Below are positions 1,779-28,101 of a DNA stretch of 28,101 nt, in pieces. Source of the stretch: a virus; the IMG/VR virus record IMGVR_UViG_3300028844_003356, positions 1 through 28,101 of that record; one strand, written 5' to 3'. Both the position numbers and the translations under genes were made by a program. Below the pieces are notes generated by a model that was not told the origin of the DNA, did no database searches, and was given only the letters and a program-made list of their open reading frames with translations. Within the stretch, counting starts at the first letter, position 1. The number at the start of each line of letters is the position of its first letter.

Positions 1779-3044
1779 TTATAGTTTACCCCCAGAACTC
1801 TTCACATGGTTCGGCTCTTTCCCATCAAATCCATGTCGCAGTAATCTTAATTTAGTGTTGAATCTACCTGTTCTAAAATCTATGGTATGTGTTACACCCG
1901 AGATAAGATAAAAACCACCATAGTCGATGCTATAGGGGTAATTATATTCAGCACAACGAGGGGATGGCATTAGGAGTTCAACGAGCATCCCTGTTTTTGC
2001 AGCATAAGTACCTTCTATCTGAATGCTGTATGAGTTATATCCGTTATGAATCTCAGCAATTCGTTTTTTCGCTTTATCGGGTGTTGTTGTGTCCCTTCCA
2101 CCAAAAAATCTACGCTGCTTGTTGTTATTCTGTTCTAGCAATGATGTCATTTTAGTCGTTGTCAGGAAGTTTGACCCGTCTGCTGATTCGTCAGAGATAT
2201 TATAAGAAGCGGATTCGAAATCATAATTCATAGCACGCAAACCACTACCACCTGCCACGGTTGCATTTGCATACGATGTATCTAATGAGAATGAATAAAA
2301 CGTCTTAGGGAACATGGCGTTCTCCTTGCGCTCTTCTTCCCTATAGATGGGGTCTTGGTCATCAAAAACCATTACGGGTATTTGTTTTTTCTTTGCAAGG
2401 GCACTCTGCTCTTCCAACATCATCGAAACAGTCTTGAACGTAAAAGACCCATCAATATGACCAACGAATTCATACTGATCATTATATTTCTCAGAAACAG
2501 CATTTTCTTGGATATACCGAAGCATTGAAACGTTGTTGATGTATGGTTGAATTATGGATGTTAGGGGAGTGCTTTGTTCTACAGCTATATTTTTGTAATT
2601 ACTCTCCCCCGCTATTTGGTCGGCAATATCACTCATTCTCGCATCAGACCAAGATCTGTTTGACACATGGTTTAGCATCGAGTCCCACCCATAATGAAAG
2701 AATGTCACTTTGAATGTCATGTTTTCGGACTTACCGACTGTCGTGTTAGCAGACTTTATTGAAACAATCTTCAGATTGAGACTTAGCAATTGGATGTTAT
2801 GTTTACCGAAAGACAGAGTGAATGTGTTTTCATGGCTCAACCTTTTTGCATTCAACAAAACACCACTAGCATCTGCAAACGTAAGCACACAGATGGGCAT
2901 TGAAACAGAGAACGATTCAGCAATATTGAAGTCGATGAGTTCAAGAGTCGATAGGGGACTAACGAAGTCACTCACCATCTTGACCTTCATCTTGTCTTCG
3001 TTCGTCCTACCGCCAATCTCTTTTACGAAGATTATATTTTCCAT
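1779..3044 (-). CDS. baseplate hub protein, T4 gp27-like
   Basis: This 421-residue protein sits directly upstream of the spike gene. It has the layout of gp27/gpD hub proteins, which form the trimeric collar joining spike to tail tube: an N-terminal beta-rich tube-like domain, a segment around residues 120-200 with RSWSDARMSDIADQIAGE and later YIQENAVSEKYNDQYEFVGH, and a C-terminal return to beta structure (TGMLVELLMPSP, YLISGVTHTIDFRTGRFNTK). T4 gp27 is 391 residues. The motif of a short helix followed by Y-I-x-E-N-A is common in hub proteins of this class. Its stop codon abuts the GTG of the spike gene and it follows the gp53-like gene by eight bases. The name rests on context, size and motif shape. 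Confidence 0.78.
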   Translation of the reverse strand: MENIIFVKEIGGRTNEDKMKVKMVSDFVSPLSTLELIDFNIAESFSVSMPICVLTFADASGVLLNAKRLSHENTFTLSFGKHNIQLLSLNLKIVSIKSANTTVGKSENMTFKVTFFHYGWDSMLNHVSNRSWSDARMSDIADQIAGESNYKNIAVEQSTPLTSIIQPYINNVSMLRYIQENAVSEKYNDQYEFVGHIDGSFTFKTVSMMLEEQSALAKKKQIPVMVFDDQDPIYREEERKENAMFPKTFYSFSLDTSYANATVAGGSGLRAMNYDFESASYNISDESADGSNFLTTTKMTSLLEQNNNKQRRFFGGRDTTTPDKAKKRIAEIHNGYNSYSIQIEGTYAAKTGMLVELLMPSPRCAEYNYPYSIDYGGFYLISGVTHTIDFRTGRFNTKLRLLRHGFDGKEPNHVKSSGGKL

Positions 3045-3052
3045 TATTGGCC

Positions 3053-3373
3053 TTAAACCTCAATCTCTCTTGTATAGAATCTCTGATATTCTTCAATGCT
3101 TGGTATTTTAACAAGGACACCGACCTCAAAATCGAAGATCGGGTCTAGGAAGTTGTTATAAAGAGCGATCAACCAACCAAGATGATATGTTCCATAATAT
3201 TTCAACGACAGTAAATCCGGTCTATATTTAACAGATTCCGGTATCCTTATTGTATCCGATGTTGTAAGATCCTCTACCTCTATCAACTGTTTTATTTTAG
3301 AATCAAGGTAGTCTAGTTCAGTGTTATCATTCACTGTCTTCTCTGCAAACAAACCTTTTTTATCTGTAATCAT
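3053..3373 (-). CDS. small baseplate protein, LysM/gp53-like
   Basis: This 106-residue protein has a C-terminal LysM-type module: YRPDLLSLKYYGTYHLGWLI, then ALYNNFLDPIFDFEVG and VLVKIPS. The pattern R-P-D-L-L-S-x-x-Y-Y-G, W-L-I-x-x-Y-N, D-P, G, I-P is typical of T4 gp53-like wedge proteins and of P2 gpX-like tail proteins, which clamp the base of the tail tube to the hub. Its ATG overlaps the stop of the preceding gene (ATGA), so the two are translationally coupled. Placement between the tube-junction protein and the hub agrees with gpX-like proteins in Mu- and P2-type tails. I cannot tell from sequence alone whether it is a wedge or a hub-collar protein. Confidence 0.65.
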   Translation of the reverse strand: MITDKKGLFAEKTVNDNTELDYLDSKIKQLIEVEDLTTSDTIRIPESVKYRPDLLSLKYYGTYHLGWLIALYNNFLDPIFDFEVGVLVKIPSIEEYQRFYTREIEV

Positions 3374-4092
3374 AAATTAGCTCCATACCAATCACCGGTC
3401 ACCGATTCAAGTGTTGGGACATTCTCTAGTGTCAATGTCACCGTAGCAACTGCCCTTAATGGGAAACCCTCACCATCAACTTTATTGGAGTAACGGACTG
3501 CCACACTTGACAGATAAACATCATATACTGTGTACAAGTCCCCAAAATAAACGTCAACTTTGTCCGGTCCTCTCACAAAGTTCAATATACTGAGTAGCTT
3601 GTTCCCATAAGAAGAAAAGTCAGAAGAGACTGTGATTTTTGGTTTTTCGTCATCGTCGTCTCTCAGACCGGCATCCACTGCAATGGCATTCAATTTTGCC
3701 AAAGCCCCATTGATCTGATCAACACCATCGTCAGTGTCCATGTGTGATGATAGAGCCATTGCTGACAACTTCAGTACTGGTGCCACAACCTCTTTCCGCG
3801 CCGAATAATATGCGACGAATTCAACATCAAAACTAATCTCTGTCGGTTCTGGGTGAATGAACATTTTTTTCATTGCTGCTCCGGGTTTTTGAGTAACACC
3901 GGCAAGAGCAAATCCCTTTGCAACTGTTTCATTCAGGCTCATCGTATCAAATGGTGTACTAAACACAGACCCGACGGTATAACCGAAGTCGTCCGGTAGT
4001 GGTGCTTCTACAACAAGCTCACCATTTGACCCATATGGTGCCTGCCTCTTTATCCTAATTTTAAACTTGTCATCGAGTTCATCCATTTTCAT
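3370..4092 (-). CDS. putative tail tube/baseplate junction protein
   Basis: This 240-residue protein is predicted beta-rich, with no signal peptide or membrane segment. Two stretches recall tube-initiator and baseplate proteins that cap the tube (T4 gp48/gp54, Bacillus XkdP class): HPEPTEISFDVEFVAYYSAR near residue 80 and GFPLRAVATVTLTLENV near the C-terminus, which is typical of a final strand packing against a neighbour. It stands between the tape measure and the LysM-like gene, the usual place for such proteins. AGGTAATGAC precedes the first ATG; a second in-frame ATG is two codons later. The family name is inference; involvement in the baseplate is better supported than the exact role. 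Confidence 0.5.
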   Translation of the reverse strand: MKMDELDDKFKIRIKRQAPYGSNGELVVEAPLPDDFGYTVGSVFSTPFDTMSLNETVAKGFALAGVTQKPGAAMKKMFIHPEPTEISFDVEFVAYYSARKEVVAPVLKLSAMALSSHMDTDDGVDQINGALAKLNAIAVDAGLRDDDDEKPKITVSSDFSSYGNKLLSILNFVRGPDKVDVYFGDLYTVYDVYLSSVAVRYSNKVDGEGFPLRAVATVTLTLENVPTLESVTGDWYGANL

Positions 4093-10545: not shown

Positions 10546-11226
10546 TTATTTTACCGCATCCAAAATATCTTGCCGTATTGTTGGTGCATCTTTGAACGTA
10601 TCATCTTTTTTTACTGTCCTCTCAACATCATCACCGGTCAACGTAACAGAATATTGAAGAACGTTAGAACCATCATACGACCATGAAACCGGAGTTATCT
10701 CGGTTGGGAAGTATCCTATAAATTTAGTCTCATGGGTTTTCTCACCACTACCATTCATGGCATAGTGCAGGATATTTCTCTTGTAAAGAGCAGGGGGATT
10801 GAAAGATCCATCAGCGTTCTCTATCAAATACATCCAGTCGGTGAAGTAGCGCAGTGTTGCACCATCTTCATACTCGTCAACTGTGAGAACAACAGAACCA
10901 ATATCACTACCAAGTGCCCCATACCAGAATGTGCCTTTATCAACGTTCTTGCTTGATTCGTAAGACGTGTTTGGTAATTCAACAGAATAAACACGATGGC
11001 TGATAACATTATGGTCATAGCCACCCATTGCTGCTTCAACCCACCCACCGGCATTAGATAATATTGCCTGTGCTCTCTCATCGGCAGATGCCACCACGTC
11101 TGCTCTATTTTGAATAGATATACCATCCATACTGAGACGAGGTAACTCAATAAGCCAATTGAAATCCATTTGAGGATTCTGTAGTTCTTTTAGAGCAAGA
11201 GCTTCTGTTATATCAGAAATAGCCAT
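10546..11226 (-). CDS. tail tube-like protein, 226 residues
   Basis: This is the third of three tandem tube-like genes. It shares the opening of its neighbours (NPQMDFNWLIELP, compare PQKSYNWVVEI and PQRAYEWEVEL). It also has an aromatic LRYFTDWMYL segment like the DVYNFFRDW of the tube, and a C-terminal beta hairpin FIGYFPTEITPVSWSYDGSN, which is typical of the gp19 tube fold. It is about 55 residues longer than the tube, with inserts near residues 40-75 and 150-170. In T4 the tube homologs gp48 and gp54 start the tube on the baseplate, and this protein may do the same. It follows the 172-residue gene by 11 bases with AAGAGG before its ATG, so the two are co-transcribed. Confidence 0.65.
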   Translation of the reverse strand: MAISDITEALALKELQNPQMDFNWLIELPRLSMDGISIQNRADVVASADERAQAILSNAGGWVEAAMGGYDHNVISHRVYSVELPNTSYESSKNVDKGTFWYGALGSDIGSVVLTVDEYEDGATLRYFTDWMYLIENADGSFNPPALYKRNILHYAMNGSGEKTHETKFIGYFPTEITPVSWSYDGSNVLQYSVTLTGDDVERTVKKDDTFKDAPTIRQDILDAVK

Positions 11227-11237
11227 TTTGTCCTCTT

Positions 11238-11756
11238 TTAAAAGTCAGAAAACTTTACAGTTTCAAGTGTGTCAAATGAGAGGCGAATGTCCACCGTCAT
11301 TTCGCTTGAGTCAGAGTATGATAGAGGGCTATCTCCAATTTCTGAAACGAAAGCACCGTGTAAGAAGTATGAACATGTGACAGTTTCACCATCATCCGAC
11401 AGAAGATGTACAGACACCTCTCTCTTGAAATCAATTGGTGCCTTACTCCTAATTGCAGCCGGTCCTTTACTGACCTCTGAATACCAATCATAGAAATAGT
11501 TATAGACATCAAGATTTTGATTATCCCAAAATGTTATAGAAAAAATATTCCCAGATGTGTCTTTCGTCGGTACATGATATTTCTTACCACAAAAGTATCT
11601 TTTCTGAACATCCATGGTCTTCGTTGGGATTGATGTTGTTTTTGCGTTCATGCTTATCTTTGAAAAAGATGAATCAGATGAATTTATTTCAACAACCCAA
11701 TTATATGACTTTTGTGGTTCCATTCTTCCTGTCAACTGATCAAATAAACCAGCCAT
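11238..11756 (-). CDS. tail tube-like protein, 172 residues
   Basis: This is a paralog of the tail tube protein encoded just upstream. The alignment by eye is clear at SYNWVVEI, SITFWDNQNLDVYNYFYDWY (tube: TVTFWDSESHDVYNFFRDW) and the C-terminal strand MTVDIRLSFD (tube: MTFDVTFSYD). Proteins of this family (T4 gp19, Pfam Phage_T4_gp19) polymerise as hexamer rings to form the inner tube. Having a second copy suggests a special ring at one end or a baseplate tube initiator. GAGAGGTGT precedes the ATG, and CATAAATA lies 30 bases upstream. It is the first gene of a two-gene unit. Confidence 0.72.
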   Translation of the reverse strand: MAGLFDQLTGRMEPQKSYNWVVEINSSDSSFSKISMNAKTTSIPTKTMDVQKRYFCGKKYHVPTKDTSGNIFSITFWDNQNLDVYNYFYDWYSEVSKGPAAIRSKAPIDFKREVSVHLLSDDGETVTCSYFLHGAFVSEIGDSPLSYSDSSEMTVDIRLSFDTLETVKFSDF

Positions 11757-11785
11757 ATCAATACACCTCTCATTCTTATATTCTT

Positions 11786-11793
11786 TATTTATG
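11786..11793 (-). promoter_or_regulatory. late promoter element CATAAATA before the tube-like pair
   Basis: The minus strand reads CATAAATA 30 bases upstream of the start of the 172-residue gene, directly after the U-tract of the tube gene terminator. Confidence 0.62.
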
Positions 11794-11795
11794 CA

Positions 11796-11825
11796 ATAAA
11801 AAAGCCACTCGTCGAAGAGTGGCTT
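11796..11825 (-). terminator. intrinsic terminator after the tail tube gene
   Basis: The minus strand forms AGCCACTC with GAGTGGCT (positions 11824-11817 and 11810-11803) around a UUCG-containing loop, followed by TTTTTT. It limits the tube transcript to a single gene, as expected for a highly made structural protein. Confidence 0.88.
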
Positions 11826-11851
11826 GAAAATGATGTATCATTTTTATTTTA

Positions 11852-12361
11852 TTAGCTTCCTTCGGAAACGTTCTCATCATAACTAAATGTTACGTCGAAT
11901 GTCATGTGTTCAGAACCTTCATAGTTGAGACTTACCTCACCCAGAGAGGTTGGGAAAACCTTCGTAAACACGTTCTTACCTGTTTCAGTTGTTGAATCAT
12001 GTGCAAACTTACGAATAATCATTTCAGCAGCATAAGAACCACGATCGTCACCACCACCCTGAAACGGATCACTGATACCAGCAATCCAATCACGGAAAAA
12101 GTTATAAACATCATGAGATTCCGAATCCCAGAAGGTCACAGTTACGGTATGCGGTGATGCATCACGACCTGCATATAGAGACTTACGAGACTTGTAATTT
12201 ATCTCGATAGTTTCTACAGAGATTTCTGGAATTGATACGTTCTGAGCACGCTGGGTCAGGATTGGAAGGTTACCGGAGGTTGAACCACCATTCAGCTCAA
12301 CTTCCCATTCATATGCACGCTGCGGTGTTTCTACGCTGCGAATGTCTTGGATACTAGCCAT
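11852..12361 (-). CDS. tail tube protein, T4 gp19-like
   Basis: This 169-residue protein has the gp19 tube signature: PQRAYEWEVELNG at the N-terminus, TVTFWDSESHDVYNFFRDW in the middle, and two C-terminal strands, VFPTSLGEVSLNYEGSEHMT and FDVTFSYDEN. T4 gp19 is 163 residues. Of the three tube-like genes, this one is nearest the sheath gene, has the exact late consensus TATAAATA upstream, and has its own terminator, so it is the best candidate for the main tube subunit. AGGAGTTTTAACAA precedes the ATG. In most myoviruses the tube gene follows the sheath gene directly; here two endonuclease genes on the other strand lie between them. Confidence 0.87.
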   Translation of the reverse strand: MASIQDIRSVETPQRAYEWEVELNGGSTSGNLPILTQRAQNVSIPEISVETIEINYKSRKSLYAGRDASPHTVTVTFWDSESHDVYNFFRDWIAGISDPFQGGGDDRGSYAAEMIIRKFAHDSTTETGKNVFTKVFPTSLGEVSLNYEGSEHMTFDVTFSYDENVSEGS

Positions 12362-12468: not shown

Positions 12469-14160
12469 ATGTTAGTGTTCATGACAAATGACAAAATCAT
12501 AAAATCCATTACAGACCACGGATTCCCAAAAGGGTTTGGCTTACGAAAATATTTATCAGAAAACCCAACAATCAAGAAATCCATATTAAACAACACCGCA
12601 TTCTTGGACGATGCTGGTGTCAAAAACATAGATCTTGCACTTCGCACACATTGCATAACTAACGGAATCACCGAAATCCCAAAGTGTCCAAACTGTGGTA
12701 GTAAAATTCTAAGAAAGAAGGCCAAAGCATGTGACCCCAACGGATACACCATGTTCTCTGAGTTCTGTTCTGCAAAGTGTGCTGCCGCAAGTGGCGTTCT
12801 TAAAGAAAGGATGGTGGAGACGAACCTAGAAAAATACGGTGTTGAGTTTGTAAGCCAGACAGATGCGTTTATACAGAAACGGAATGCAACAAATGCCGAA
12901 AGGTTTGATGGTGGTCATCCTATGAGGTCAGAACACCACAAAGAAAAGTTCAAGACCACCATGCTTGAAAAATATGGTGTTGAATATGCACAGCAATCAG
13001 AAGCCATAAAAGAAAAAACAAAAAAGTCAAACTTTGAGAAGTTTGGTTTTGACAACCCAATGAAAAATAAAGAAACAGCAGAAAAGGTATCCACCGCTTT
13101 GAGGCAACGTAACTTGGAAAAGGGTTTCAAAATGGGTGTTTTCGGGTTTTCTTCAAGTGCAGTTGACATACTATCAGACAAAGAGAAGCTTTCTGAGCTG
13201 TACAAAGAGGTTCCATCAACAACTGCGATTGCCACAATCATTGGAGTCTCCGCAGAGACTGTGAGAAGAAGAATTAATGAACATGGGATAGAGATTTCAC
13301 ACACATCGTCTGTAATGGAAACCGAGTTGTATGAATATATACGATCAATTTACAAAGGGACTATAATAAGAAACTCAAGAAAAATTATTGATGGGTATGA
13401 GATTGACATATTCTTACCAGAAGAAAAAATTGGTTTTGAGTTTAATGGAGTTTACTGGCATAGTTCAGTACATAAAGAAAAGTCATATCACCAAAAGAAA
13501 AGTCTGAAGTGTGCAGAAAATGGGATTTTACTTATACACGTTTGGGAAGACGATTGGGTACTCAAAAAAGAAGTCGTTAAGAACAAAATAAAAAGCAAGC
13601 TGTCTAAGCAAGAAGAAAGGGTATATGCAAGAAAAACTGTTGTAAAGGAAGTGGAGAGGTATGAGATAGAACACATTCTCGAAAATTATCACATACAGGG
13701 GAAAACGACTGCATCAAAATGGTATGCCCTGATGTATGATGGACAGCCTGTGGCAACCATTGGGATAAAGAATATTGGTGATGGTGTTTGGGATCTTGTT
13801 CGATTTGCAAGCAGTGTGTCTGTTGTCGGTGGTTTTAGTAAACTGTTGTCTCACTTTAAAAAGAGTAATGACTGGAGTGAGATAATAACATTCGCCCATA
13901 TGGACTATAGTGTCGGGGGTATGTATGAGAAATCTGGTTTTGAAAGACACTCTATTACTCAACCTGCTCTCTGGTATGTCAGGAGAGGTGTACGGCACAG
14001 GAGAGAGAAGTTTATGAAGCACAAGCTACCAGATATAATGGGAGACCTGTTTGATGAAACCATGACAGAATGGGAGAACATGCTAAAAATTGGGTATGTA
14101 AGATTGTTTGACGCAGGATCAATAAAATATGTTATGAAAAAAGAAAACCCGCTCAAATGA
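12469..14160 (+). CDS. Vsr-type homing endonuclease with GNAT-like C-terminal domain (copy 1)
   Basis: This 563-residue free-standing endonuclease has five parts: a CxxC...CxxxC zinc site (73-104, CPNCG and FCSAKCA); four EKYGVE-type repeats (about 115-200) of the kind used for DNA binding; a helix-turn-helix (TIIGVSAETVRRRINEHG, about 257-274); a Vsr/EDxHD nuclease core with YEIDIF (D313), FEFNGVYWH (E324, H331) and HVWEDDW (357-363); and a GNAT-like region (385-515) with YARK, YHIQGK and MYEKSGF. I-Bth0305I is a known relative of the nuclease core. Such genes spread by cutting alleles that lack them. The gene runs against its neighbours. GAAGGGG fits a GTG start at 12475 or the ATG at 12481 better than the ATG at 12469. 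Its stop lies inside a terminator. Confidence 0.8.
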   Translation: MLVFMTNDKIIKSITDHGFPKGFGLRKYLSENPTIKKSILNNTAFLDDAGVKNIDLALRTHCITNGITEIPKCPNCGSKILRKKAKACDPNGYTMFSEFCSAKCAAASGVLKERMVETNLEKYGVEFVSQTDAFIQKRNATNAERFDGGHPMRSEHHKEKFKTTMLEKYGVEYAQQSEAIKEKTKKSNFEKFGFDNPMKNKETAEKVSTALRQRNLEKGFKMGVFGFSSSAVDILSDKEKLSELYKEVPSTTAIATIIGVSAETVRRRINEHGIEISHTSSVMETELYEYIRSIYKGTIIRNSRKIIDGYEIDIFLPEEKIGFEFNGVYWHSSVHKEKSYHQKKSLKCAENGILLIHVWEDDWVLKKEVVKNKIKSKLSKQEERVYARKTVVKEVERYEIEHILENYHIQGKTTASKWYALMYDGQPVATIGIKNIGDGVWDLVRFASSVSVVGGFSKLLSHFKKSNDWSEIITFAHMDYSVGGMYEKSGFERHSITQPALWYVRRGVRHRREKFMKHKLPDIMGDLFDETMTEWENMLKIGYVRLFDAGSIKYVMKKENPLK

Positions 14161-14171
14161 GCGGGTTTTTT
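14144..14171 (+). terminator. terminator containing the stop codon of endonuclease copy 1
   Basis: CCCGCTCA (14148-14155) pairs with TGAGCGGG (14158-14165), flanked by AAAA and TTTTTT. The stop TGA (14158-14160) is the first part of the 3' arm, so the last codons (Asn-Pro-Leu-Lys) are the 5' arm. It can also stop minus-strand transcripts. Confidence 0.9.
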
Positions 14172-14268: not shown

Positions 14269-16191
14269 ATGAAATCATACGAAGAACTCATGTCATATTA
14301 TGAAGAAGCAGGAAGACCGAGTGGATATGATCTAAACAAAAAGGAACACAGGGTCTTCAAAAAAGCACTCATCTCCTTTGTTGACAATCTCTTTATGAAA
14401 AATCTTAAAGGTGAAAAGAAGTTTGCTCTTTATTTGAAATGTCTCCTTGATAATATACAAGAACCACCCAAATGTGAAAACTGTGGGGCACCGGTATCGT
14501 CTGTTAGAAAAACCGAGTTCTCCACCTATTGCTCAAGGAAGTGTATGGGTGCCTCAACTATTAACAAGAGAAAAGAAACAATAAGAGAACGTTATGGTGT
14601 CGAACATCAGATGCACCTCGACGACGTTAAAGAAAAAGTAAAGCAGACAACAAAGCAAAACTTCGGTGTTGAGTACTCAATGCAGTCGGAAGAAGTAAAG
14701 GAAAAGTCAAGATCTACATGCATGGAGCGTTACGGGGTTCCATATTATGGAAGCACGGAAGAATCAATTCTTAGTCGAGCAGAAGGAATAAAAAACAACA
14801 AAGAATCCATCAGAGAGAAAACAACCCAAACAAATATGGAGAGATATGGTGTTCCATGCATTCTACAACTCCCGAGTGTGCGAAAGAACGCACTAAAAGC
14901 TATAAAGGAAAACAAAGAGGAAATAAGAGAAAAGATAAAGATCACATCATTGATAAGATATGGTGTTGATCATCCAGCAAAATCAGAAGAAGTCAAGAAT
15001 AAGTCAAAAGCATCTATCATGCAACGATATGGTGTTGAAAACATAATGCACGATCTTAATTCTGTTGAGAAGCTGAGGAAAACAAACCTAGAAAAATATG
15101 GGTCGGAAACAACAACACAGTTAAAATTTGTAAGAGAGGGATTGCAGAGATTTTATGACGAAAACCCATTTCACCGGTTAGGAGAAGAAAAAAGAGACAT
15201 CCTTCTCAACAGAAGAATATTGGAAGAACTTCATGAGAAGTACATCACATATTCAAACATCGCAAATATTATTGGTGTTTCTGTTGGTGTTATAAAAAGA
15301 GCATTTGAGTTTCATGGTATACACCATGAAAATACAAATGAATCTGGTTTCGAAAAATCCGTTAGCCTTTTTGTAGATTCTCTTGGTATCGAAAATATAA
15401 AGAGGAACGTTAGATTCGATGGATTGGAAGTTGATATTTATATAGAGCATCTTAAAATCGGAATTGAGTGTAATGGTATTTGGTGGCATTCAGAAGAATA
15501 TAAAGACAGGCTATACCACAAAGAAAAGACAACGAAACTTTTAAAAGAACATGATATAAGACTCATCCACGTCTGGGAAGACGATTGGTTGTTTAAGAAT
15601 GATATCGTAAAAGAGAAAATAAAAGCAAAACTCGGTGTCTCTGATAAGAAAAGAGTTTATGCAAGAAAATGCGAAATAAAAGAAGTTCCATCGAAAGACG
15701 CATTCACCTTCATGGAAATAAACCACATCCAAGGCAAAACATTTGGTTCTAAATGGGTGGGTCTATACTTTGAAGGATGCCTCGTTGCATGTGTTGGATA
15801 CAAGAACAAAGGCAATGGTGTTTATGACATAACACGTTATGCAACATCAGAAAATGTCATTGGAGGTTTTGGTAAATTGTTAAAACATCTCCAAAGAACA
15901 CTTGATTGGACTGAGTTCTTCACTTATGCATCTATGGACTATAGTGTTGGTGATGTTTATGAAAAGACTGGTTTTGTTTTGGAAAGAGTGACAGATCCAC
16001 AAATGTTTTATGTAAAAAATCAAAAAAGATATAGAAGAGAACAATTCATGAAACATAAACTTCCTGATATTTTTAATAATGTTGACATGAACAAAACGGA
16101 AAGAGAGATAATGAAAGAAAATGGTTATGTAAGATTATTTGACGCAGGATCAATAAAATATGTCATGAAAAAAGAAAACCCACTCAATTGA
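14269..16191 (+). CDS. Vsr-type homing endonuclease with GNAT-like C-terminal domain (copy 2)
   Basis: This 640-residue paralog of copy 1 has the same order: zinc site C69-C72...C88-C92, seven RYGVE-type repeats (near residues 108, 132, 154, 192, 230, 253 and 277), HTH NIIGVSVGVIKRAFEFHG, nuclease core LEVDIYIEHLKIGIECNGIW (D389, E400) with H407 and HVWEDDW (434-440), then a GNAT-like region (YARKCEIKEV, INHIQGK, VYEKTGF). The last 16 residues match copy 1 except the last (RLFDAGSIKYVMKKENPLN). The longer open frame from 14170 is rejected: it runs through the promoter, and GAGGAAAC before the ATG at 14269 sets the start. The nuclease should cut unoccupied alleles near the sheath/tube border. 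The GNAT assignment is inference from pattern. Confidence 0.82.
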   Translation: MKSYEELMSYYEEAGRPSGYDLNKKEHRVFKKALISFVDNLFMKNLKGEKKFALYLKCLLDNIQEPPKCENCGAPVSSVRKTEFSTYCSRKCMGASTINKRKETIRERYGVEHQMHLDDVKEKVKQTTKQNFGVEYSMQSEEVKEKSRSTCMERYGVPYYGSTEESILSRAEGIKNNKESIREKTTQTNMERYGVPCILQLPSVRKNALKAIKENKEEIREKIKITSLIRYGVDHPAKSEEVKNKSKASIMQRYGVENIMHDLNSVEKLRKTNLEKYGSETTTQLKFVREGLQRFYDENPFHRLGEEKRDILLNRRILEELHEKYITYSNIANIIGVSVGVIKRAFEFHGIHHENTNESGFEKSVSLFVDSLGIENIKRNVRFDGLEVDIYIEHLKIGIECNGIWWHSEEYKDRLYHKEKTTKLLKEHDIRLIHVWEDDWLFKNDIVKEKIKAKLGVSDKKRVYARKCEIKEVPSKDAFTFMEINHIQGKTFGSKWVGLYFEGCLVACVGYKNKGNGVYDITRYATSENVIGGFGKLLKHLQRTLDWTEFFTYASMDYSVGDVYEKTGFVLERVTDPQMFYVKNQKRYRREQFMKHKLPDIFNNVDMNKTEREIMKENGYVRLFDAGSIKYVMKKENPLN

Positions 16192-16200
16192 GTGGGTTTT
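16175..16200 (+). terminator. palindromic terminator containing the stop codon of endonuclease copy 2
   Basis: Positions 16175-16200 are a perfect 26-base palindrome (AAAACCCACTCAA and its complement). The stop TGA (16189-16191) lies in the 3' arm. On the minus strand it is followed by CTTTTTT, so it also ends the sheath transcript. Confidence 0.88.
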
Positions 16201-17995: not shown

Positions 17996-18034
17996 AGAAA
18001 CACCTAAAACTGATAACAACACAAAACAAATGAG

Positions 18035-18408
18035 AATGAGAATGAAACTCAATTACAATTGTAACAAAATGTAATAAAATCGTATTTTATTCGCACACAT
18101 ACAGTAATACATATATCTGTATGTGTGTGTCATAGACCCTATACAAATCAATGACTTACGTCACAATGAAAAATCACAGAAATTTACATCAAGATTGAAT
18201 TTTGATTCATCAATAAATGAAAACGATAATGAGAATGAAACTCAATTACAATTGTAACAAAATGTAATAAAATCGTATTTTCATTCGTCTGCATACAGAT
18301 ATACATATTACTGTATGTGAGCGTCATAGACCCTATACAAATCAATGACTTACGTTACATCCACATACATATCGATTTTGCAATCAAGATTGAGTTTTGA
18401 TTCATCAA
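18035..18408. repeat. duplicated ~180-bp intergenic element with hairpin
   Basis: Two direct copies, 18035-18213 and 18228-18408, are offset by 193 bases and lie in the 548-base non-coding divide between the sheath unit and the sigma factor gene. Each copy holds, in order, the palindrome TTACAATTGTAA, TAACAAAATGTAATAAAATC, an inverted repeat ending ACAG...CTGT with a 12-base loop, GTCATAGACCCTATACAAAT, CAATGACTTACGT, and a TTGATTCATCAA palindrome. Copies differ by substitutions and small indels, mostly in the hairpin stem and in the segment after ACTTACGT. I see no open frame. It may be a replication origin, a regulator-binding region or a structured leader; only the repeat itself is directly shown. 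Confidence 0.85.
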
Positions 18409-18423
18409 TTTTGTGTTATGTAT

Positions 18424-18452
18424 TTGACAAGTCTGTATATGTGAGCTATTAT
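18424..18452 (+). promoter_or_regulatory. sigma70-type early promoter for the sigma factor/recombination unit
   Basis: TTGACA (18424-18429), a 17-base spacer and TATTAT (18447-18452) form a near-consensus promoter 40 bases before the gp55-like start. No late element is near, so the unit should be read early by host polymerase. Confidence 0.75.
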
Positions 18453-18491: not shown

Positions 18492-19049
18492 ATGAGCAAA
18501 GAAACACCACAACGTAAGAATTACATTGAACCATCAGAATTTTACAATGAGATGATGGTATGTTTGAAAGAAAACAAGATATCGAATAGACTCAGCTTCA
18601 TGTTTCAGAAGTTGGCAGAGAAGTATGCCAACCACCCGAAGTTTGTTCGATACTCCCATCTAAGAGAAGATCTGGTTGCAACTGCGCTCCTTTCGTGTGT
18701 AAAGAGTTTCCCTAAGTTCAGACCATACAAAGATCAACCATGGGACGGTGAGACGATTCGAGATTATCACTACACATATTGCAATAATCCGTTTGCATTT
18801 TTCACTACCTGCATTCACAATGACTTCCTACATCTACTCCGAAATGAGTACAAGCAGAGGAATATCGTCAATAAGATCCGTTTGGAAGAAGGACTTGAAG
18901 CTGATTATGGATATGTTGATATGATCAAAGACAAAGAGGAAGCAGAGCGGATGAACAGTGATGACCTAGACGGTGACAACGGAACATCAGATGAATATTA
19001 TTCAAAAGAAGATAAACCAGAAGAAACTGCTGGCGGAATCCAGTGGTAG
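18492..19049 (+). CDS. late-transcription sigma factor, T4 gp55-like
   Basis: This 185-residue protein is the same length as T4 gp55. The central segment, HLREDLVATALLSCVKSFPK then NPFAFFTTCIHNDFLHLLRN and EYKQRNIVNKIR, matches the sigma region 2-like core of gp55 (T4: [20 protein letters not shown], then ERKEVAKKYS). This is the part that binds core polymerase and reads the TATAAATA late promoter. The C-terminal 45 residues are acidic. T4 gp55 ends with a sliding-clamp-binding motif (SLDFLYE); here the end is EETAGGIQW, with no clear equivalent. TTAGAGGAT precedes the ATG. It heads the early unit with gp47 and gp46, as these genes also cluster in T4. Its expected targets, NNTAAATA elements, occur throughout this window. 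Confidence 0.85.
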   Translation: MSKETPQRKNYIEPSEFYNEMMVCLKENKISNRLSFMFQKLAEKYANHPKFVRYSHLREDLVATALLSCVKSFPKFRPYKDQPWDGETIRDYHYTYCNNPFAFFTTCIHNDFLHLLRNEYKQRNIVNKIRLEEGLEADYGYVDMIKDKEEAERMNSDDLDGDNGTSDEYYSKEDKPEETAGGIQW

Positions 19050-19060
19050 GGGATATTGAA

Positions 19061-20131
19061 ATGTCTAAATTTTTATTGATTGGTGACCTGCACTTCGGTG
19101 AAAAGTCAAATTCAGAGAAGTACAATAAACAGGTTCTCGACTTCATCGATTGGGTGTGTGGGGTCGGTGAAGAGAATGGTGTTGATGGTGTCGTCCAGTT
19201 GGGTGACTACTTTCATACCAGACATAAGATTGATGTATCTACTTTAAACTACGGACTGCAAGGGGCAGAGAGGCTGTCTGCGACGTTTTCTAAAGAGAAC
19301 GTGTGTGTCATCATAGGTAACCACGATCTCTACTATCTCGAACGATTAGATATGTCCAGTGTCAACTCATTGAAGCATCATGTCACTGTCGTTTCCAATG
19401 TGTCTGATATTGCCGAAATCAATCCTTCTTATAAAAAGGGTGAGGTGTTGTTGACTCCTTGGATTGTTGATGCAGAAATGTGGGATGATGTCGTTAATAA
19501 AAGTGCAGAATATCCATATATCATGGGACACTTTGAGTTTCAGGGTTTCGTGTTGAACGAAGGTTATGCTGTTGAACACGGTTGGACACACAAGAGTCTA
19601 AAAAGAGCCAAACGAGTTATTTCTGGACACTATCATAGCCCACAAGAGAAAGATAACGTTCTGTATGCGGGGACACCTTATCCTATCACGATGAATGAGG
19701 CCAACGAGGAACACGGGGTCTATATTCTTGATACAGATACCGGTGATATTGAGTTTATACGGTATGACGGTGTAAAGGTCATTTCTATTCCATATGACCA
19801 GTTTGATGAAGACTTGGTAGAGGCGTTGGACCCAGAGAATACGTCTATCCGAATCGAGTTCCCAGACGATCTTGATGATGAAACGATTATTGACGACTTT
19901 AAGGATGTTCTATCATCTATGAAGTTTAACGATGTCAAGATAAAACACACCAGTAAGGCCGTAACAAAGATTCTTGAGGCTGATGTTGGTGAGGTTGAAA
20001 GTGTCGAGAACGTTGACGAGGTTGTCATGAAATTCTTGACTGATGCAGTCGATATCGATGGAGTGGACAAAGAAATTCTCACAAAGTATTATCTTGAGGC
20101 TAAGAAGAGGGGAGAAGAAGAGAATGATTGA
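19061..20131 (+). CDS. 47: recombination nuclease subunit, T4 gp47/SbcD/Mre11-like
   Basis: This 356-residue metallophosphoesterase has all the motifs in order: GDLHFG (D9, H11), LGDYFH (D49), GNHD (87-89 NHD), GHFEF (H157) and SGHYH (H190, H192). These residues hold two metal ions for nuclease activity. With gp46 it forms the complex that trims DNA ends for recombination-dependent replication and host DNA breakdown. T4 gp47 is 339 residues. I take the ATG at 19061, because AGGGGATATTGAA stands before it and MSKFLLIGDLHFG is the normal N-terminus; an upstream in-frame start at 19043 lies inside the sigma factor gene. Its last eight bases overlap gp46, so the two subunits are translationally coupled. 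Confidence 0.93.
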   Translation: MSKFLLIGDLHFGEKSNSEKYNKQVLDFIDWVCGVGEENGVDGVVQLGDYFHTRHKIDVSTLNYGLQGAERLSATFSKENVCVIIGNHDLYYLERLDMSSVNSLKHHVTVVSNVSDIAEINPSYKKGEVLLTPWIVDAEMWDDVVNKSAEYPYIMGHFEFQGFVLNEGYAVEHGWTHKSLKRAKRVISGHYHSPQEKDNVLYAGTPYPITMNEANEEHGVYILDTDTGDIEFIRYDGVKVISIPYDQFDEDLVEALDPENTSIRIEFPDDLDDETIIDDFKDVLSSMKFNDVKIKHTSKAVTKILEADVGEVESVENVDEVVMKFLTDAVDIDGVDKEILTKYYLEAKKRGEEEND

Positions 20132-22322
20132 ATTTAAGACTGTCACGGTAAAGAATTTTCTATCGTTTGGTGGAAAACCTCAGACGTTTAATCTCGGTAG
20201 AGAAGAGGTGTGTCTGATTCTTGGTGACAATAAAGACGTTGGTGACAGAGGTGAATCCAGAAACGGTGCTGGCAAAACAACTATCATGAATGCTGTTCTT
20301 TTTGCATTGTATGGTAAGGGTATCGAAAGCATCAAGACAGACGAGTTCATCAACCTTACAAACGGGAAGGGTCTCGTCGTTGAGCTTGTTTTTGGTATCG
20401 GTGATGATGAGTATAAAATAACCAGAACAAGAAAACCTAACTCTTTGAAGTTCGAGCGAAATGGTGAGAGTCTGACCCTCGATGCTATGAAGAACACCGA
20501 TGATCTTATAACGAAAACAATCGGTTACGAATATGAGGTGTTCGTTCTACTGTTCTTCCTATCACCAACAAAGAAGTCTTTCATGGCTATGAGCGGTGCG
20601 GAACAGAGGACCATGATTGAACGACTTCTTGCCCTTGATACATTGGCAAAACGAGCAGAGACACTTAAAAGCATCGCAAGTGAGCTGAACTCTGATCTAA
20701 GGTTGGCTGAACGAGATCTTGAGAATGCAAAATCTCTTTTTGATAAAGAAAAAGCCAGATATGATCGTCTGATTGACCAATCAGAGGCTCTGCGATTGAG
20801 AAATGAACAAAAAATTGTTTCGCTCAGTACCGAACTTGAGGAACTGAAATCATTCGATTTCTCTATGGCGGAAGAAAGTAACAAGAAGAGAAAGGCCATA
20901 GAGGAGCAACTCTGTGGAGAAGAACAGAGAAAGATTGATCTTGAAAACAGACAGCAACGAATTTCTCAAGAAATTCAAAGACTTGCTAGAGAGATAGAAC
21001 TATATGAGGACAATGATGAGAAACGTAGAAACAATGCTTCTGTTGTTGAAGCAAAGATCGGTGATGTATTGGCAGATGTTGATACAATTGGAGATTTTGA
21101 TGAACTAGAGAAAACCATAACAGGGTTTGAGAATGATCAGAATCTTAAAGATGAGATCAGTTCTCTTGAAGCTGATATGGTTAATGTTGAGCGTGCGAGA
21201 GATGAAAACATCCGTGAAATTGATAGATTGAGTTATGAACTTGATTCTTTGAAAGATGGGAAGTGTCATACATGCGGCCAGCCTCATTATGATAAAGAAC
21301 GTGTTGCAGAACTTGAAAAGTTGATAGACGGTAAGACGCAGAGTGTCAAGGATCTTGGTGAGTCTATCAGCAGTATTGAGACTGAGATAAAAAATGTTGA
21401 ATCACGGTTAGTGGGGGTGACCCGACAACAGTTTAAAAAGGCAAATGAAGAAATCAACCGACTGGATGCTCTTATTAAAGATTTAGACAGGCTGGAAGCG
21501 GAGAAAGAAAAAAACCCATACGATGACACATATCCAACCACAAAAGCTGTCTACGACGAGAATAAGAGGCTTCTTGACGGTCTCATCGATGAGTCAGGTG
21601 ACCTTGTTGGGGAAATTGAAAGTGTTGAAAGTTCTATTGTGTCGATTGTTGATACCTTGTCCGAACTACCTAAGGCTATTTCTGATGAAACGATTGTACA
21701 GAAGCGAGCGAGAATCAAACAGATCGAAGGTGAGTTGGAAGCATTGGAACAGGAAGAAAACCCATATGAAGTTGAGGCTAATCTGGTGGAACTTCCTGAT
21801 GTTTCGGATTTTGAGAACGTGGTGAAAGACATTAAGAACCATGTCAAGCATGTCAAATATTTGACAAAACTGTTGACAGATAACAAGTCGTTCGTTCGCA
21901 AGAATATCGTGGATCTGTACATTCCGTATGTGAACAAGAAGATTGTTGAATATAGCCGCAGTCTTGATCTACCACATGTTGCGCAAATCAACAATGATAT
22001 GAGTGTAGACATTGAATACATGAACAAAAATGTGAGTTTCTACAACATGTCTGCTGGTGAACGTCTGAGGCTTAATATAGCGACGACTGCTGCGTTTAAA
22101 GACCTCGTTGGTACGTTGGGAAGGGGGTCTAACTTAATGCTCATAGACGAGCTGTTTGACGGGTCTCTGGACACTGGTGGAATGTTCAAGGCATTCAGGT
22201 TCATGAAAGAGGTATGCCCGAACATCCTCATGATCTCACACAGGGACGAGCTGAAAGGTGAGGTAGACACCACCATCCTGATAGAAAAAGAGAATGGGTT
22301 CTCAACCATAAAGGAAATTTAA
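20124..22322 (+). CDS. 46: recombination ATPase subunit, T4 gp46/SbcC/Rad50-like
   Basis: This 732-residue SMC-type ATPase has the N-terminal motif MIEFKTVTVKNFLSFGG, Walker A GESRNGAGKTT (43-53), and two long coiled-coil arms meeting at a zinc hook CHTC (381-384). It ends with the ABC signature SAGERLRLN (from 643), Walker B LMLIDE (D675, E676) and the H-loop ISHRDE. T4 gp46 is 560 residues, so the arms are longer here. ATP binding controls the gp47 nuclease on DNA ends. The ATG at 20124 fits the family N-terminus and overlaps the gp47 stop; the longer frame from 20043 is out-of-frame gp47 sequence. The loop before Walker A (GDNKDVGDR) is longer than usual. The gene is closed by the hairpin at 22331. 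Confidence 0.93.
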   Translation: MIEFKTVTVKNFLSFGGKPQTFNLGREEVCLILGDNKDVGDRGESRNGAGKTTIMNAVLFALYGKGIESIKTDEFINLTNGKGLVVELVFGIGDDEYKITRTRKPNSLKFERNGESLTLDAMKNTDDLITKTIGYEYEVFVLLFFLSPTKKSFMAMSGAEQRTMIERLLALDTLAKRAETLKSIASELNSDLRLAERDLENAKSLFDKEKARYDRLIDQSEALRLRNEQKIVSLSTELEELKSFDFSMAEESNKKRKAIEEQLCGEEQRKIDLENRQQRISQEIQRLAREIELYEDNDEKRRNNASVVEAKIGDVLADVDTIGDFDELEKTITGFENDQNLKDEISSLEADMVNVERARDENIREIDRLSYELDSLKDGKCHTCGQPHYDKERVAELEKLIDGKTQSVKDLGESISSIETEIKNVESRLVGVTRQQFKKANEEINRLDALIKDLDRLEAEKEKNPYDDTYPTTKAVYDENKRLLDGLIDESGDLVGEIESVESSIVSIVDTLSELPKAISDETIVQKRARIKQIEGELEALEQEENPYEVEANLVELPDVSDFENVVKDIKNHVKHVKYLTKLLTDNKSFVRKNIVDLYIPYVNKKIVEYSRSLDLPHVAQINNDMSVDIEYMNKNVSFYNMSAGERLRLNIATTAAFKDLVGTLGRGSNLMLIDELFDGSLDTGGMFKAFRFMKEVCPNILMISHRDELKGEVDTTILIEKENGFSTIKEI

Positions 22323-22330
22323 AATCATTA

Positions 22331-22368
22331 TCCCCTCATAAATAGAACTTTATGAGGGGATTTTTATG
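22331..22368 (+). promoter_or_regulatory. terminator/RBS-masking hairpin with embedded late promoter before the resolvase gene
   Basis: A perfect 12-pair stem (TCCCCTCATAAA 22331-22342 with TTTATGAGGGGA 22349-22360, loop TAGAAC) is followed by TTTTT and the ATG (22366). It reads as an intrinsic terminator for gp46. Its 3' arm also contains the resolvase Shine-Dalgarno (GAGGGGA), so any read-through mRNA would hide that site. CATAAATA (22337-22344) lies in the 5' arm and loop; a late transcript starting near 22350 would carry only the 3' arm, leaving the site free. Confidence 0.75.
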
Positions 22369-22866
22369 ATAGTTATGGGGCTTGATCAAAGCTATACATC
22401 AACAGGTGTGTGTGTATTCTCCGATGACGGGGAACTTATTCACCACTGTGTTATCAGATCAGAAAAGAATGAAGCAGTTGAACACGACAAGATCAGACGG
22501 GCTGTAGATATATCTGATGAAATAGCCAGGATTACCACTGATATGAATGTGGATGTGGTTTCTATCGAAGGATTGTCATTCGGTGGAAATGTCGGAAATA
22601 CGTCAAGAGATCTAGCGGGTCTTCAGTATCTTATTGTTTCTAAACTGTTAAACTGTGGGTGTGATGTCAAAATAACACCACCGAAACAGATTAAAAAGTT
22701 TGCCACAGGGTCTGGTAATGCTTCAAAGATCGAAATGTTTGAGGCATTACCAGAGAAAGTTAAGGAACGAATCGAAATATATAAGAAGACGAAGGGTAGG
22801 TATGATGTAACCGATGCCTATTGGATCGGAAAATATTGGTTTTCTTTGGAGAATGTGCATGTATGA
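22366..22866 (+). CDS. RuvC-like Holliday junction resolvase
   Basis: This 166-residue protein has the RuvC/RNase H-fold pattern: MGLDQSYTSTGV (D7) at the first strand, VVSIEGLSFGG (E68) after the second helix, LAGLQYLIVSKL helix, ITPPKQIKKFATGSGNASK (basic segment, K121), and YDVTDAYWIGKYW (D147, D150). These four acids would bind two magnesium ions. The size matches bacterial and phage RuvC-like resolvases. It would cut branched replicating DNA before packaging, the role of endonuclease VII (gp49) in T4. Its expression appears late, through the hairpin/promoter element directly before it. The last eight bases overlap the next gene. Confidence 0.85.
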   Translation: MIVMGLDQSYTSTGVCVFSDDGELIHHCVIRSEKNEAVEHDKIRRAVDISDEIARITTDMNVDVVSIEGLSFGGNVGNTSRDLAGLQYLIVSKLLNCGCDVKITPPKQIKKFATGSGNASKIEMFEALPEKVKERIEIYKKTKGRYDVTDAYWIGKYWFSLENVHV

Positions 22867-23182: not shown

Positions 23183-23199
23183 GATTGAGAGAGGACACA

Positions 23200-25320
23200 A
23201 TGACACAGCTTGACATTGCATTAAATTATGCCCGTAATGGTATTAAGATATTTCCTTGTACACAGCAGAAACGACCTGCGGTTCGTGGTGGTGATGGTTT
23301 TAAAGACGCCACAAACGACATTGAACAGGTGCGTGAATGGTGGGAGAAATACCCCAATGCCTTGGTTGGTGCACCCAATGATCAGTTTGTTGTCATTGAT
23401 GTTGACGTTGATGGGCTATGTGCGACCAACAAGTTGCTGGTGGAAACCGCCGTGAACGCTCTGAAGGCTAATGGTATCGTAACACCTGACTGTCTTGAGG
23501 TAACAACAAAATCTGGTGGAACCCATTTCTACTTCAAGAAAAACGAAAATGTAACCCGTCACATTTATTCACTACCTTCCATTGATCTCCTCTCCGATGG
23601 AGGGTATGTGATTCTTCCCGACCAAAGGGTTTACAAGTGCAAAACATCAAATACACCTTGGGATGCTATGGCGACCCTTCCCGCATTTGACCATGTGGCT
23701 TTCTGGGATCTTGCCTCTTCCATGGAAGAGGTAACAAAGACTTCCAAAAAACTAAAAAAAGAGTCAAAAGGTTCATGTAAGACTGCATATCGAAAAACCG
23801 CGAAGAAAAAAGACAAAGAAACGAGAGATCTTACGAGTATCCCAACACCAAAAAACGGTGAGGAGATTCTGACGACTGAAGAAGTTGACGAGCCTCGGAA
23901 GAACAGTATTAACTATAAAACCGGTGAAATTGAGTTTGAGCAAACTCCAGACATGTACAACGGTGTAAGTGAAGAAAAGAAGAAGACTGATTTTGTGGTT
24001 GAGTTTGATGACAACAACAGGCTGATACTGGACCGTCCAATTGACACATCAGTTATCAATGCCTTGTTTCATGATACACGGGTTCAAACCCGTCTCGGTC
24101 GTATGATGGGTCTGAACGTGCCTCGTGTCGGGGATACGAGCTTACAGAGATCAATAATCCCGACACACGTTGACAACAAACCTTCAATGGGTGTTCGTTG
24201 GAGTGGTGATAGAACTCATATCATAGTGCGTGATTTTTCTAACCATTTCTCAGACAAGTATAAGCAGGTTGATTACAATATTGTTCGCCTGTATGCAACT
24301 TGTAAATATAAGGCTCTTGTGCCACGGATGAAAAGCCCAGAGTTTACAATCTGGTTCATGAGGATGCTTGACGAAGCCGGTATCATCAACTGCACCGAGT
24401 TCGTCAAGTCTTACGGGTATACATACCAAGAACGGAACCTTTCCCCATCTGAGATAAAGGTTGCAGAAGGTCTTTTATACTTGGATGCCCTGAAGGAAAT
24501 GTATGATGGGTATTGCGGAACAACAACATACTCTGACAAATTCTGTGCCGCATGGTGTGGTATCGATCCATCCACTGGTAACAGAGCCAAGAACAAGCTG
24601 GTGGAACTTGGTTTCGCTAAAGTCGAAGGTATGTTTGATTGTTCTGGTGGCACACGAACAGATGGTTTTTTCGAGACTAGATTGTTGTCGGTTCGTACAA
24701 CAAAAATGAATTTGAAGTCTGCATTTCAGTTGAGAGATGAGTGTAAACAAAATGCAGAGAAAGAAGAGGAAGAAAAAATGGCAGAGCAGCAGCGACTGGT
24801 AACGTCTCTTGAGATGCGTGTATCACAAGAGGGATATCAGAAAATCATGAATTTTGCAATCGATCATGGTTTTGAAGACAAAGTACCTGAGAGGCGTAAC
24901 ATGTTCATCAACCTTGGTGGTTGTTATGGTATACATGAAATCAAAGAACCAGAGACGAATATGAATACTTTCTTCATGGGTGACCTGCGCATTGATAGGG
25001 TCACGGCTATGCAAGGTGACGGGGAGGTTCTGATCTTGGCCGGTGAGTCACCCTCAATCATGGAGTTTGCATCGTCTATTCAACGAGATAACGAACTTTA
25101 TAAAAAAGACCAATACACAGATGAACCTCTGATCGGTATTGTTATTTGTAACGACTTTAAACCAGAAGACGTTAAAACTGATTTTGTGTCTCTGGAGGCT
25201 AGGCTAAAAGAATACCTCGGGGGCGTTGTCTCCTTTGAGGATGTGAACATTCGGTACGAGAGTAGTGAAAACATGTTTAAGTACATCTATGACGGTCGTG
25301 AGGTTGATCTTGGGGAATGA
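23200..25320 (+). CDS. PrimPol-type DNA primase (bifunctional primase/polymerase domain)
   Basis: This 706-residue protein opens with a PrimPol domain (PF09250 type, about 1-175): YARNGIKIFPC, KDATND...VREWW, VVIDVDVDG (D67, D69), KSGGTHFYF (H109) and SIDLLSDGGYVILP (D129), the metal- and nucleotide-binding residues of archaeo-eukaryotic primases. A Lys-rich linker follows (about 175-260). A middle region has PTHVDNKPSMGVRWSGDRTH, which recalls the fold of CHC2 modules but without the cysteines. Then comes a winged-helix-like stretch (TYSDKFCAAWCGIDPSTGNR), as in replication initiators. No Walker motifs are visible, so it is not fused to a helicase. GAGAGGACACA before the ATG at 23200 rules out the upstream TTG at 23185. 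Confidence 0.82.
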   Translation: MTQLDIALNYARNGIKIFPCTQQKRPAVRGGDGFKDATNDIEQVREWWEKYPNALVGAPNDQFVVIDVDVDGLCATNKLLVETAVNALKANGIVTPDCLEVTTKSGGTHFYFKKNENVTRHIYSLPSIDLLSDGGYVILPDQRVYKCKTSNTPWDAMATLPAFDHVAFWDLASSMEEVTKTSKKLKKESKGSCKTAYRKTAKKKDKETRDLTSIPTPKNGEEILTTEEVDEPRKNSINYKTGEIEFEQTPDMYNGVSEEKKKTDFVVEFDDNNRLILDRPIDTSVINALFHDTRVQTRLGRMMGLNVPRVGDTSLQRSIIPTHVDNKPSMGVRWSGDRTHIIVRDFSNHFSDKYKQVDYNIVRLYATCKYKALVPRMKSPEFTIWFMRMLDEAGIINCTEFVKSYGYTYQERNLSPSEIKVAEGLLYLDALKEMYDGYCGTTTYSDKFCAAWCGIDPSTGNRAKNKLVELGFAKVEGMFDCSGGTRTDGFFETRLLSVRTTKMNLKSAFQLRDECKQNAEKEEEEKMAEQQRLVTSLEMRVSQEGYQKIMNFAIDHGFEDKVPERRNMFINLGGCYGIHEIKEPETNMNTFFMGDLRIDRVTAMQGDGEVLILAGESPSIMEFASSIQRDNELYKKDQYTDEPLIGIVICNDFKPEDVKTDFVSLEARLKEYLGGVVSFEDVNIRYESSENMFKYIYDGREVDLGE

Positions 25321-27469: not shown

Positions 27470-27496
27470 AAAAGGGATCACAATGATCCCTTTTTT
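27470..27496. terminator. bidirectional terminator between portal and endonuclease copy 3
   Basis: AAAAGGGATCA (27470-27480) pairs with TGATCCCTTTT (27484-27494) around CAA, with TTTTTT at 27491-27496 on the plus strand and TTTTATTTT on the minus strand. The minus-strand stop TGA (27480-27478) of the endonuclease lies in the stem. Confidence 0.9.
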
Positions 27497-28101
27497 AATG
27501 AATATTTTATGAGTCCAGAGTCGAAGACCTGTAAAAACCCATTCTCTTCCATTATCTGTTTTTCCGTCTTTGTGTCACTATAGTTTGGTAGGTATTTTAA
27601 TTTTTTCTTCATAAACATTCCACGACCATATCTGATGCCGTCTTTTGTATAAAACATTGATGGTTGTGTTATTTTTATTTTATCGAAGCCGTTCTTTTCA
27701 TAAACACCACCACGACTTATTGACATATCTGCGTATGAAATGATTTCACACCACTCATTGGTTCTCATAAAAAACTTCAGCATTTTACTGAAACAACCGA
27801 CAACGAGACGATCTGTGCAGAATCTAACAAGTTCCCACACACCATTCTGTCTTTTTCTGAATATCATACAACCAACCATATCATCGCTATCGTTGTCGTA
27901 ACAACCAAGATATAGAGAACCAGTTGCACTACCTTGTATGTGGTTGACATTGAGTAGATTCTTTGTCGCTTTATGTGTCGTCTCTCTTACTGTTGTGTTT
28001 CTTGCATACACCCTTTTACCTTCATACAAGCCCAGTTCAATCCTTATTTTGTTTTTAATGATCTCTCTTTTTATTTCGTCATCCCATTGATCACTCCATA
28101 T
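27478..28101 (-). CDS. Vsr-type homing endonuclease, C-terminal part (copy 3, cut by window edge)
   Basis: This is a partial gene: 207 codons and the stop lie in the window and the 5' part is beyond the right edge. The first visible residues, IWSDQWDDEIKREIIKNKIR, align with the end of the nuclease core of copies 1 and 2 (HVWEDDW...VVKNKIK). The GNAT-like region follows with RVYARNTTV, VNHIQGSATGSLYLG, WELVRFC, YADMSISRGGVYEKNGFDKI and FMKKKL, and it ends VFDSGLIKYSLKKGSL. It is more diverged from the other two than they are from each other. A TTG at 28027-28029 could act as a start but is interior to the family. The gene converges on the portal gene. Confidence 0.82.
   Translation of the reverse strand: MWSDQWDDEIKREIIKNKIRIELGLYEGKRVYARNTTVRETTHKATKNLLNVNHIQGSATGSLYLGCYDNDSDDMVGCMIFRKRQNGVWELVRFCTDRLVVGCFSKMLKFFMRTNEWCEIISYADMSISRGGVYEKNGFDKIKITQPSMFYTKDGIRYGRGMFMKKKLKYLPNYSDTKTEKQIMEENGFLQVFDSGLIKYSLKKGSL

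Follow-up and report, generated by a model that had tools for sequence, protein, structure and literature searches.

The window, i.e. the complete stretch of 28,101 bases analyzed here, is an IMG/VR virus record and represents a fragment of a T4-like tailed phage. It encodes structural proteins (tail sheath, tail-tube-like, hub, baseplate lysozyme and portal) as well as homing endonucleases, and its + strand harbors an operon with the order gp55 (late sigma factor), gp47, gp46, RuvC, a small gene and prim-pol. Among named phages, the Alishewanella phages Slickus01 and Slicko01 are its nearest relatives; they share the gene order from tail sheath to portal with the window. A nucleotide search for relatives returned nothing, and neither did scans of IMG/VR with the single proteins RuvC or gp46. 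The main features of the operon are the following:

18424..18452, + strand: sigma-70-like promoter TTGACA-17-TATTAT, strong and a candidate early promoter as judged by consensus matches only (11/12); its RNA would extend into the resolvase
18492..19049, + strand: gp55-like late sigma factor that heads the operon (phrog_234, E 1e-17)
19043..20131, + strand: gp47-like (SbcD) subunit (phrog_100, E 3e-65)
20043..22322, + strand: gp46-like (SbcC) recombination nuclease subunit, upstream of the resolvase on the same strand (phrog_77, E 1e-92)
22366..22866, + strand: RuvC-family Holliday junction resolvase, 166 aa (phrog_159, E 7e-35; PF02075)
23185..25320, + strand: prim-pol type primase/polymerase, downstream gene that would be reached by read-through (PF09250, E 5e-23; phrog_5852)

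The original prediction, made from the letters of the sequence, had placed the nuclease in a RuvC-like family, and profile comparison confirmed this assignment with a PF02075 score of 32.2 bits (cut-off 22.2). The protein begins with MIVMGLDQS, a RuvC start, and the acidic RuvC-type residues D7, E68, D147 and D150 are invariant across relatives. Upstream of the resolvase, gp55, gp47 and gp46 are encoded on the same strand behind the sigma-70-like promoter at 18424, and this gene order together with the one promoter is the reason to expect early transcription of the region.

Besides the operon, several other elements of the window were recorded. Between the tail genes and gp55, the noncoding region at 18028-18409 carries two imperfect direct repeats with a spacing of about 194 bases, matching as 81 nt at 85%, 61 nt at 97% and 27 nt at 96%; it is possibly a replication origin or has a regulatory role. 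Three homing endonuclease genes of a single family (phrog_3339) are located at 12469-14160, 14269-16188 and 27478-28029. The palindromic terminators AAAACCCGCTCAAATGAGCGGGTTTT (14142-14171) and AAAACCCACTCAATTGAGTGGGTTTT (16175-16200) each end a gene of this family; since they are near-identical and their flanks are similar, duplication of the homing endonuclease unit as a whole, including its terminator, is suggested. On the minus strand, three tail-tube-like genes (phrog_45) lie in a row at 10546-12361, and two of the three have a late promoter core to themselves.

Hairpin and overlapping signals at the resolvase start

A stable hairpin is located between the gp46 stop codon UAA (22320-22322) and the resolvase ATG at 22366. 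Folding of 22320-22400 yielded -26 kcal/mol (z -4.5), and none of 200 shuffled sequences was equally stable. The stem is perfect, as originally predicted, but comprises 13 instead of 12 pairs. Several signals overlap with or adjoin this structure:

22330..22361, + strand: regulatory hairpin (predicted) with a 13-bp perfect stem (22330-22342 / 22349-22361) and the loop at 22343-22348, based on fold and shuffles
22324-22328 with 22366-22370, + strand: outer 5-bp helix pairing the resolvase start codon, based on the fold; an analogue over the AUG is predicted in L008
22354..22359, + strand: Shine-Dalgarno (SD) sequence GAGGGG within the 3' arm of the hairpin, based on sequence; anti-SD duplex -8.5 kcal/mol
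22337..22344, + strand: putative late promoter core CATAAATA, T4-type; the same core lies ahead of late genes of the window
22361..22365, + strand: U-run UUUUU after the stem, a possible (facultative) intrinsic terminator, based on a terminator-like score and found in few relatives
22352..22369, + strand: five-codon frame ATG AGG GGA TTT TTA TGA (M R G F L stop)

The loop reads TAGAAC. As had been proposed, the 3' arm doubles as the SD sequence of the resolvase, with a spacing of 6 nt to the ATG, and the promoter core spans the 5' arm and the loop. In the computed fold of the read-through RNA, both the SD sequence and the start codon are sequestered, in agreement with the opening costs given below. 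Rfam covariance models run over the window gave no match at the gathering score.

The hairpin had also been proposed to end gp46 transcription. This is plausible for the window, where a GC-rich 13-bp stem is followed by UUUUU, but the U-run is not conserved and occurs in few relatives. Likewise, the predicted five-codon frame at 22352 is present, with a TGA overlapping the resolvase ATG, but L008, L036 and T4 gene 49 either have no such frame or show it out of register. Because the relatives and gene 49 lack a counterpart, the frame was rejected as a functional feature and is probably due to chance.

Late promoter cores and modelled opening of the start site

The motif ATAAATA occurs 11 times in the window compared with 5.3 expected copies, a number reached by 1/100 shuffles. 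Seven of these 11 copies lie directly upstream of a gene, mostly a late structural one, namely two tail-tube-like genes, hub, a 74-aa gene, portal, a homing endonuclease and the resolvase itself; two of these are, like the core at the resolvase, C-first (10541 and 11793, both on the minus strand). Together with the gp55-like gene, these late-type motifs before late genes point to gp55-directed late transcription; gp33 and gp45 were not seen within the 28-kb fragment. In other phages, the reported late promoter is NATAAATA for the T4-like cyanophage S-PM2 and TATAAATA for T4 and KVP40 (PMC2984593).

Based on T4 spacing, the late RNA is predicted to start near 22350 (22350-22352), where the base at 22350 is a T and the more usual purine, A22352, follows two bases on. 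A start in this region appears well founded, because the core recurs before late genes and the phage encodes gp55. According to this predicted start, the placement of the promoter core would leave the late RNA without the 5' arm of the hairpin.

We then computed the opening cost, defined as the free energy required to keep the stretch spanning -15 to the start codon free of pairing. The read-through RNA of the window showed an opening cost of 16.9 kcal/mol (15-20 with upstream contexts of differing length) versus 1.2-3.0 kcal/mol for late RNAs starting 9 to 13 nt past the T of TAAATA. The idea that the read-through RNA is locked and the late RNA free is thereby borne out at the level of the model. 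For T4 gene 49, whose TAAATA is located 35 nt from the start, the same calculation resulted in 15.8 kcal/mol for the long and 2.9 kcal/mol for the short RNA; these matching energetics support the convergence with gene 49 that the original prediction had put forward.

Occurrence of the element in related phages

Profile scans led to 80-odd RuvC loci, from which 32 distinct RuvC genes downstream of gp46 on the same strand were retained after removal of near-duplicates, and 213 other genes from the same loci served as controls. No relative with a RuvC identity above 46% to that of the window came up. The count was limited to gp46-linked loci, and six loci picked with the promoter already seen were left out. 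A TAAATA motif 15-60 nt upstream was present in 23/32 gp46-linked RuvC genes compared with 50/213 controls (p 1e-7). As a joint criterion, we required a TAAATA late core together with a release of at least 8 kcal/mol when the RNA starts at the promoter. With this threshold, which was set after inspection of the first table, and with start codons chosen by rule, 18/32 gp46-linked RuvC genes but only 5/213 controls were positive (p 1e-14); when the window is excluded, 17/31 remain. The threshold-free comparison of opening costs (median 13.2 kcal/mol for gp46-linked RuvC genes and 5.0 kcal/mol for controls) is as strong as the thresholded count. In the 18 joint-positive genes, the distance from core to start is 23-44 nt, and promoter-to-start distances cluster at 23-34 nt. 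Six more RuvC genes, which show no gp46 linkage in the available sequence, were positive as well.

The remaining 14/32 genes fall below this threshold: nine of them lack TAAATA within range (e.g. L007, L039, L044 and L076), several still hiding the SD sequence, and the rest show less release. RuvC-like genes from named phages outside the group (rV5, Mosig, pYD6-A, 4L372D and PhAER-3) have no TAAATA and a mostly open start site, as expected if they are not under this control, while those of PhiW-14 and EspYZU12 display moderate structure with the core absent. A DNA pattern scan with ATAAATAG...TTATGAGGG yielded mostly unrelated matches in addition to the L008 contig (= L010); it also gave L019, L026 and L031, a group with the core ahead of a late-looking gene that has no strong lock.

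Some loci carry further arrangements. In L007 (3722-3990), gp46 and RuvC are separated by a small minus-strand gene with a CATAAATA late promoter that is directed antisense over the RuvC leader, where the + strand lock is missing; the gp46 gene of this locus (460-3744) contains an apparent intein-like insert of several hundred codons in the Walker A region (GAGKC...HNTT). Overlapping back-to-back late promoters, TAAATA and TATTTA, were found in L002 (9356-9419) and at divergent tail genes in L064 and L073. Each RNA from such overlapping opposite-strand promoters could self-fold, and these make up the majority of the strong control hits.

Conservation of base pairing in relatives had been named as a check on the original prediction, and the arms were compared accordingly. 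The stem sequences are unlike between most phages. Nevertheless, when the 5' segment of each phage was combined with the 3' segment of every phage, cognate segments paired with a mean of -12.4 kcal/mol versus -6.5 kcal/mol for swapped ones, and the cognate mean was matched by 0/50,000 permutations. The three most similar elements show covariation at a single pair: the core's first base lies in C22337-G22354 in the window, and the equivalent pair is U-A in L036 and U-G in L008, so that the promoter base and the SD-side base change together.

Alternative readings, the proposed switch and known systems

One explanation could be that the element primarily serves the gp55-gp47-gp46 operon as its intrinsic terminator, and that its overlap with the SD sequence and ATAAATA is an accident of a compact genome. 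The 13-bp stem followed by UUUUU, with its terminator-like score, fits this explanation, as do the U-runs directly after the lock stem in L036, L059 and L094. However, the majority of hairpin-bearing relatives have no U-run (L041, L056, L060, L051, L065, L105, L052 and L008), and the core inside the element is far more common than in control genes. Moreover, gp46 and RuvC are separated by 200 to 1,300 bases in L052, L055, L034, L063, L064 and L057, and the hairpin is nevertheless found at the RuvC start. This position despite intervening genes argues for a lock that goes with the resolvase rather than with the gp46 end. In Slickus01 (L002), the terminator hairpin AAAATGGACgaaaGTCCATTTTTT comes first and is followed by a separate lock AATATCTTCaaagaGAGGATATT ahead of the RuvC ATG, with GGTAAATA overlapping the 5' arm. 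We consider a mere terminator unlikely on these grounds. As the U-run adjoins the lock stem in the window, L036, L059 and L094, terminator and lock may be fused in these four. Termination is plausibly an optional addition to the lock, and partial at most here, because most relatives lack the U-run and the Slickus01 terminator is separate. Strong termination would also deprive the downstream prim-pol gene of read-through transcripts, which favors a translational lock with partial termination at best.

Stable intergenic hairpins often act as RNA 3'-end stabilisers or RNase III processing sites, and the element could in principle divide the gp46 mRNA from the downstream mRNA in this way, with an independent late promoter. 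Stems of 13-21 bp do occur (L060), but such a role accounts neither for the SD sequence within the 3' arm, nor for a core position from which the RNA would start past the 5' arm, nor for the persistence of the lock away from gp46, so that we regard it as very improbable. We see even less of a chance for translational coupling of the resolvase to gp46, in which ribosomes ending at UAA 22320-22322 would open the hairpin. The stem starts 7 nt past this stop codon and a terminating ribosome could touch its base, but it would cover just the first few pairs, and relatives have the same lock with 26 to 1,300 nt between it and the gp46 stop.

We favor, with a probability of roughly 0.86, the reading that 22324-22370 forms a stage switch for a RuvC-type resolvase, consisting of a lock in the read-through RNA that is released late. 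Our computations show the hairpin fold, promoter core and gp55 gene together with the conservation and arm co-variation in relatives. RNA made from the gp55-gp47-gp46 operon in the early or middle phase would carry both arms and fold, thereby burying the SD sequence and the start codon of the resolvase and preventing its translation; the same RNA may still continue to the downstream primase gene, with partial termination at the U-run as an optional extra in this phage. In the late phase, gp55-directed polymerase would start at CATAAATA inside the hairpin, near 22350, and the RNA without the 5' arm would leave the ribosome site free. For the infected cell, we infer an actual late start, early read-through and an effect on translation. 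The switch probably serves to shield replicating DNA from a branched-DNA nuclease until packaging.

EndoVII (PF02945) had no match in 9/10 tested genomes or records including Slickus01, some records possibly being incomplete, while gp55 was matched in 10/10. In these phages, RuvC thus appears to take the place of gp49; L073 is the one with EndoVII and has no promoter core at its RuvC gene. The best explanation would be that an early junction-cutting nuclease is costly and that both lineages put the same switch on unrelated nucleases. Because it sits on two unrelated resolvases with the same job, timing and not the enzyme is apparently under selection. With less certainty, we lean towards a broader view: in a deep, mostly uncultivated T4-like group lacking EndoVII, selection may have repeatedly rebuilt or kept a late-only RuvC lock on unrelated stems, T4-type replication and packaging would generally require late Holliday junction resolution irrespective of the enzyme, and the 38-base element of the window would fuse terminator, lock and promoter. 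The relatives provide dozens of natural promoter-in-hairpin variants, and the switch offers a direct way to ask what early production of a phage resolvase harms. In addition, late gene starts and resolvases become recognisable in uncultivated T4-like phages.

In the open-access literature searched, we found no description of such a switch on a RuvC gene, but related arrangements are known. For T4 e and soc, an RNA structure blocks early translation and has the late promoters in its 5' strand (PMC3014915), an arrangement like that proposed for the window. Their gene products are different, however, and both the blocking and the mapped late starts have been demonstrated experimentally for e. For I-TevI/II/III, segB and Aeh1 mobE, the late promoter is placed in such a way that the late RNA cannot form the SD-hiding hairpin (PMC2988022). 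The window would share this escape, but these genes encode mobile endonucleases and not a recombination resolvase. Unlike T4 homing endonucleases, the one at 14269 in the window has TATAAATA 53 nt upstream and no strong lock over its ribosome binding site. Slickus01 and Slicko01 show the same gp46-RuvC gene order and a lock hairpin with GGTAAATA over the 5' arm; they differ in the separate upstream terminator, in a RuvC that is 36-41% identical and in the first two bases of the core.

The closest parallel is T4 gene 49, which is listed among the inhibitory leader structures (PMC3014915) and was compared here on the basis of reviews and the T4 sequence. Both are Holliday junction resolvase genes with a hairpin hiding the SD sequence, a late promoter core on its 5' side and near-identical computed opening costs, and the early-transcribed surroundings of gene 49 would have their counterpart in the gp55-gp47-gp46 operon of the window. 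In contrast, gp49 is an EndoVII-type nuclease without the RuvC fold, the upstream gene is pin instead of gp46, and the stem has no unbroken U-run directly after it (GGGTTTATTATG). Altogether, sequence and modelling strongly support a T4-type switch on a non-homologous resolvase, in which the logic is shared and the gene is new.
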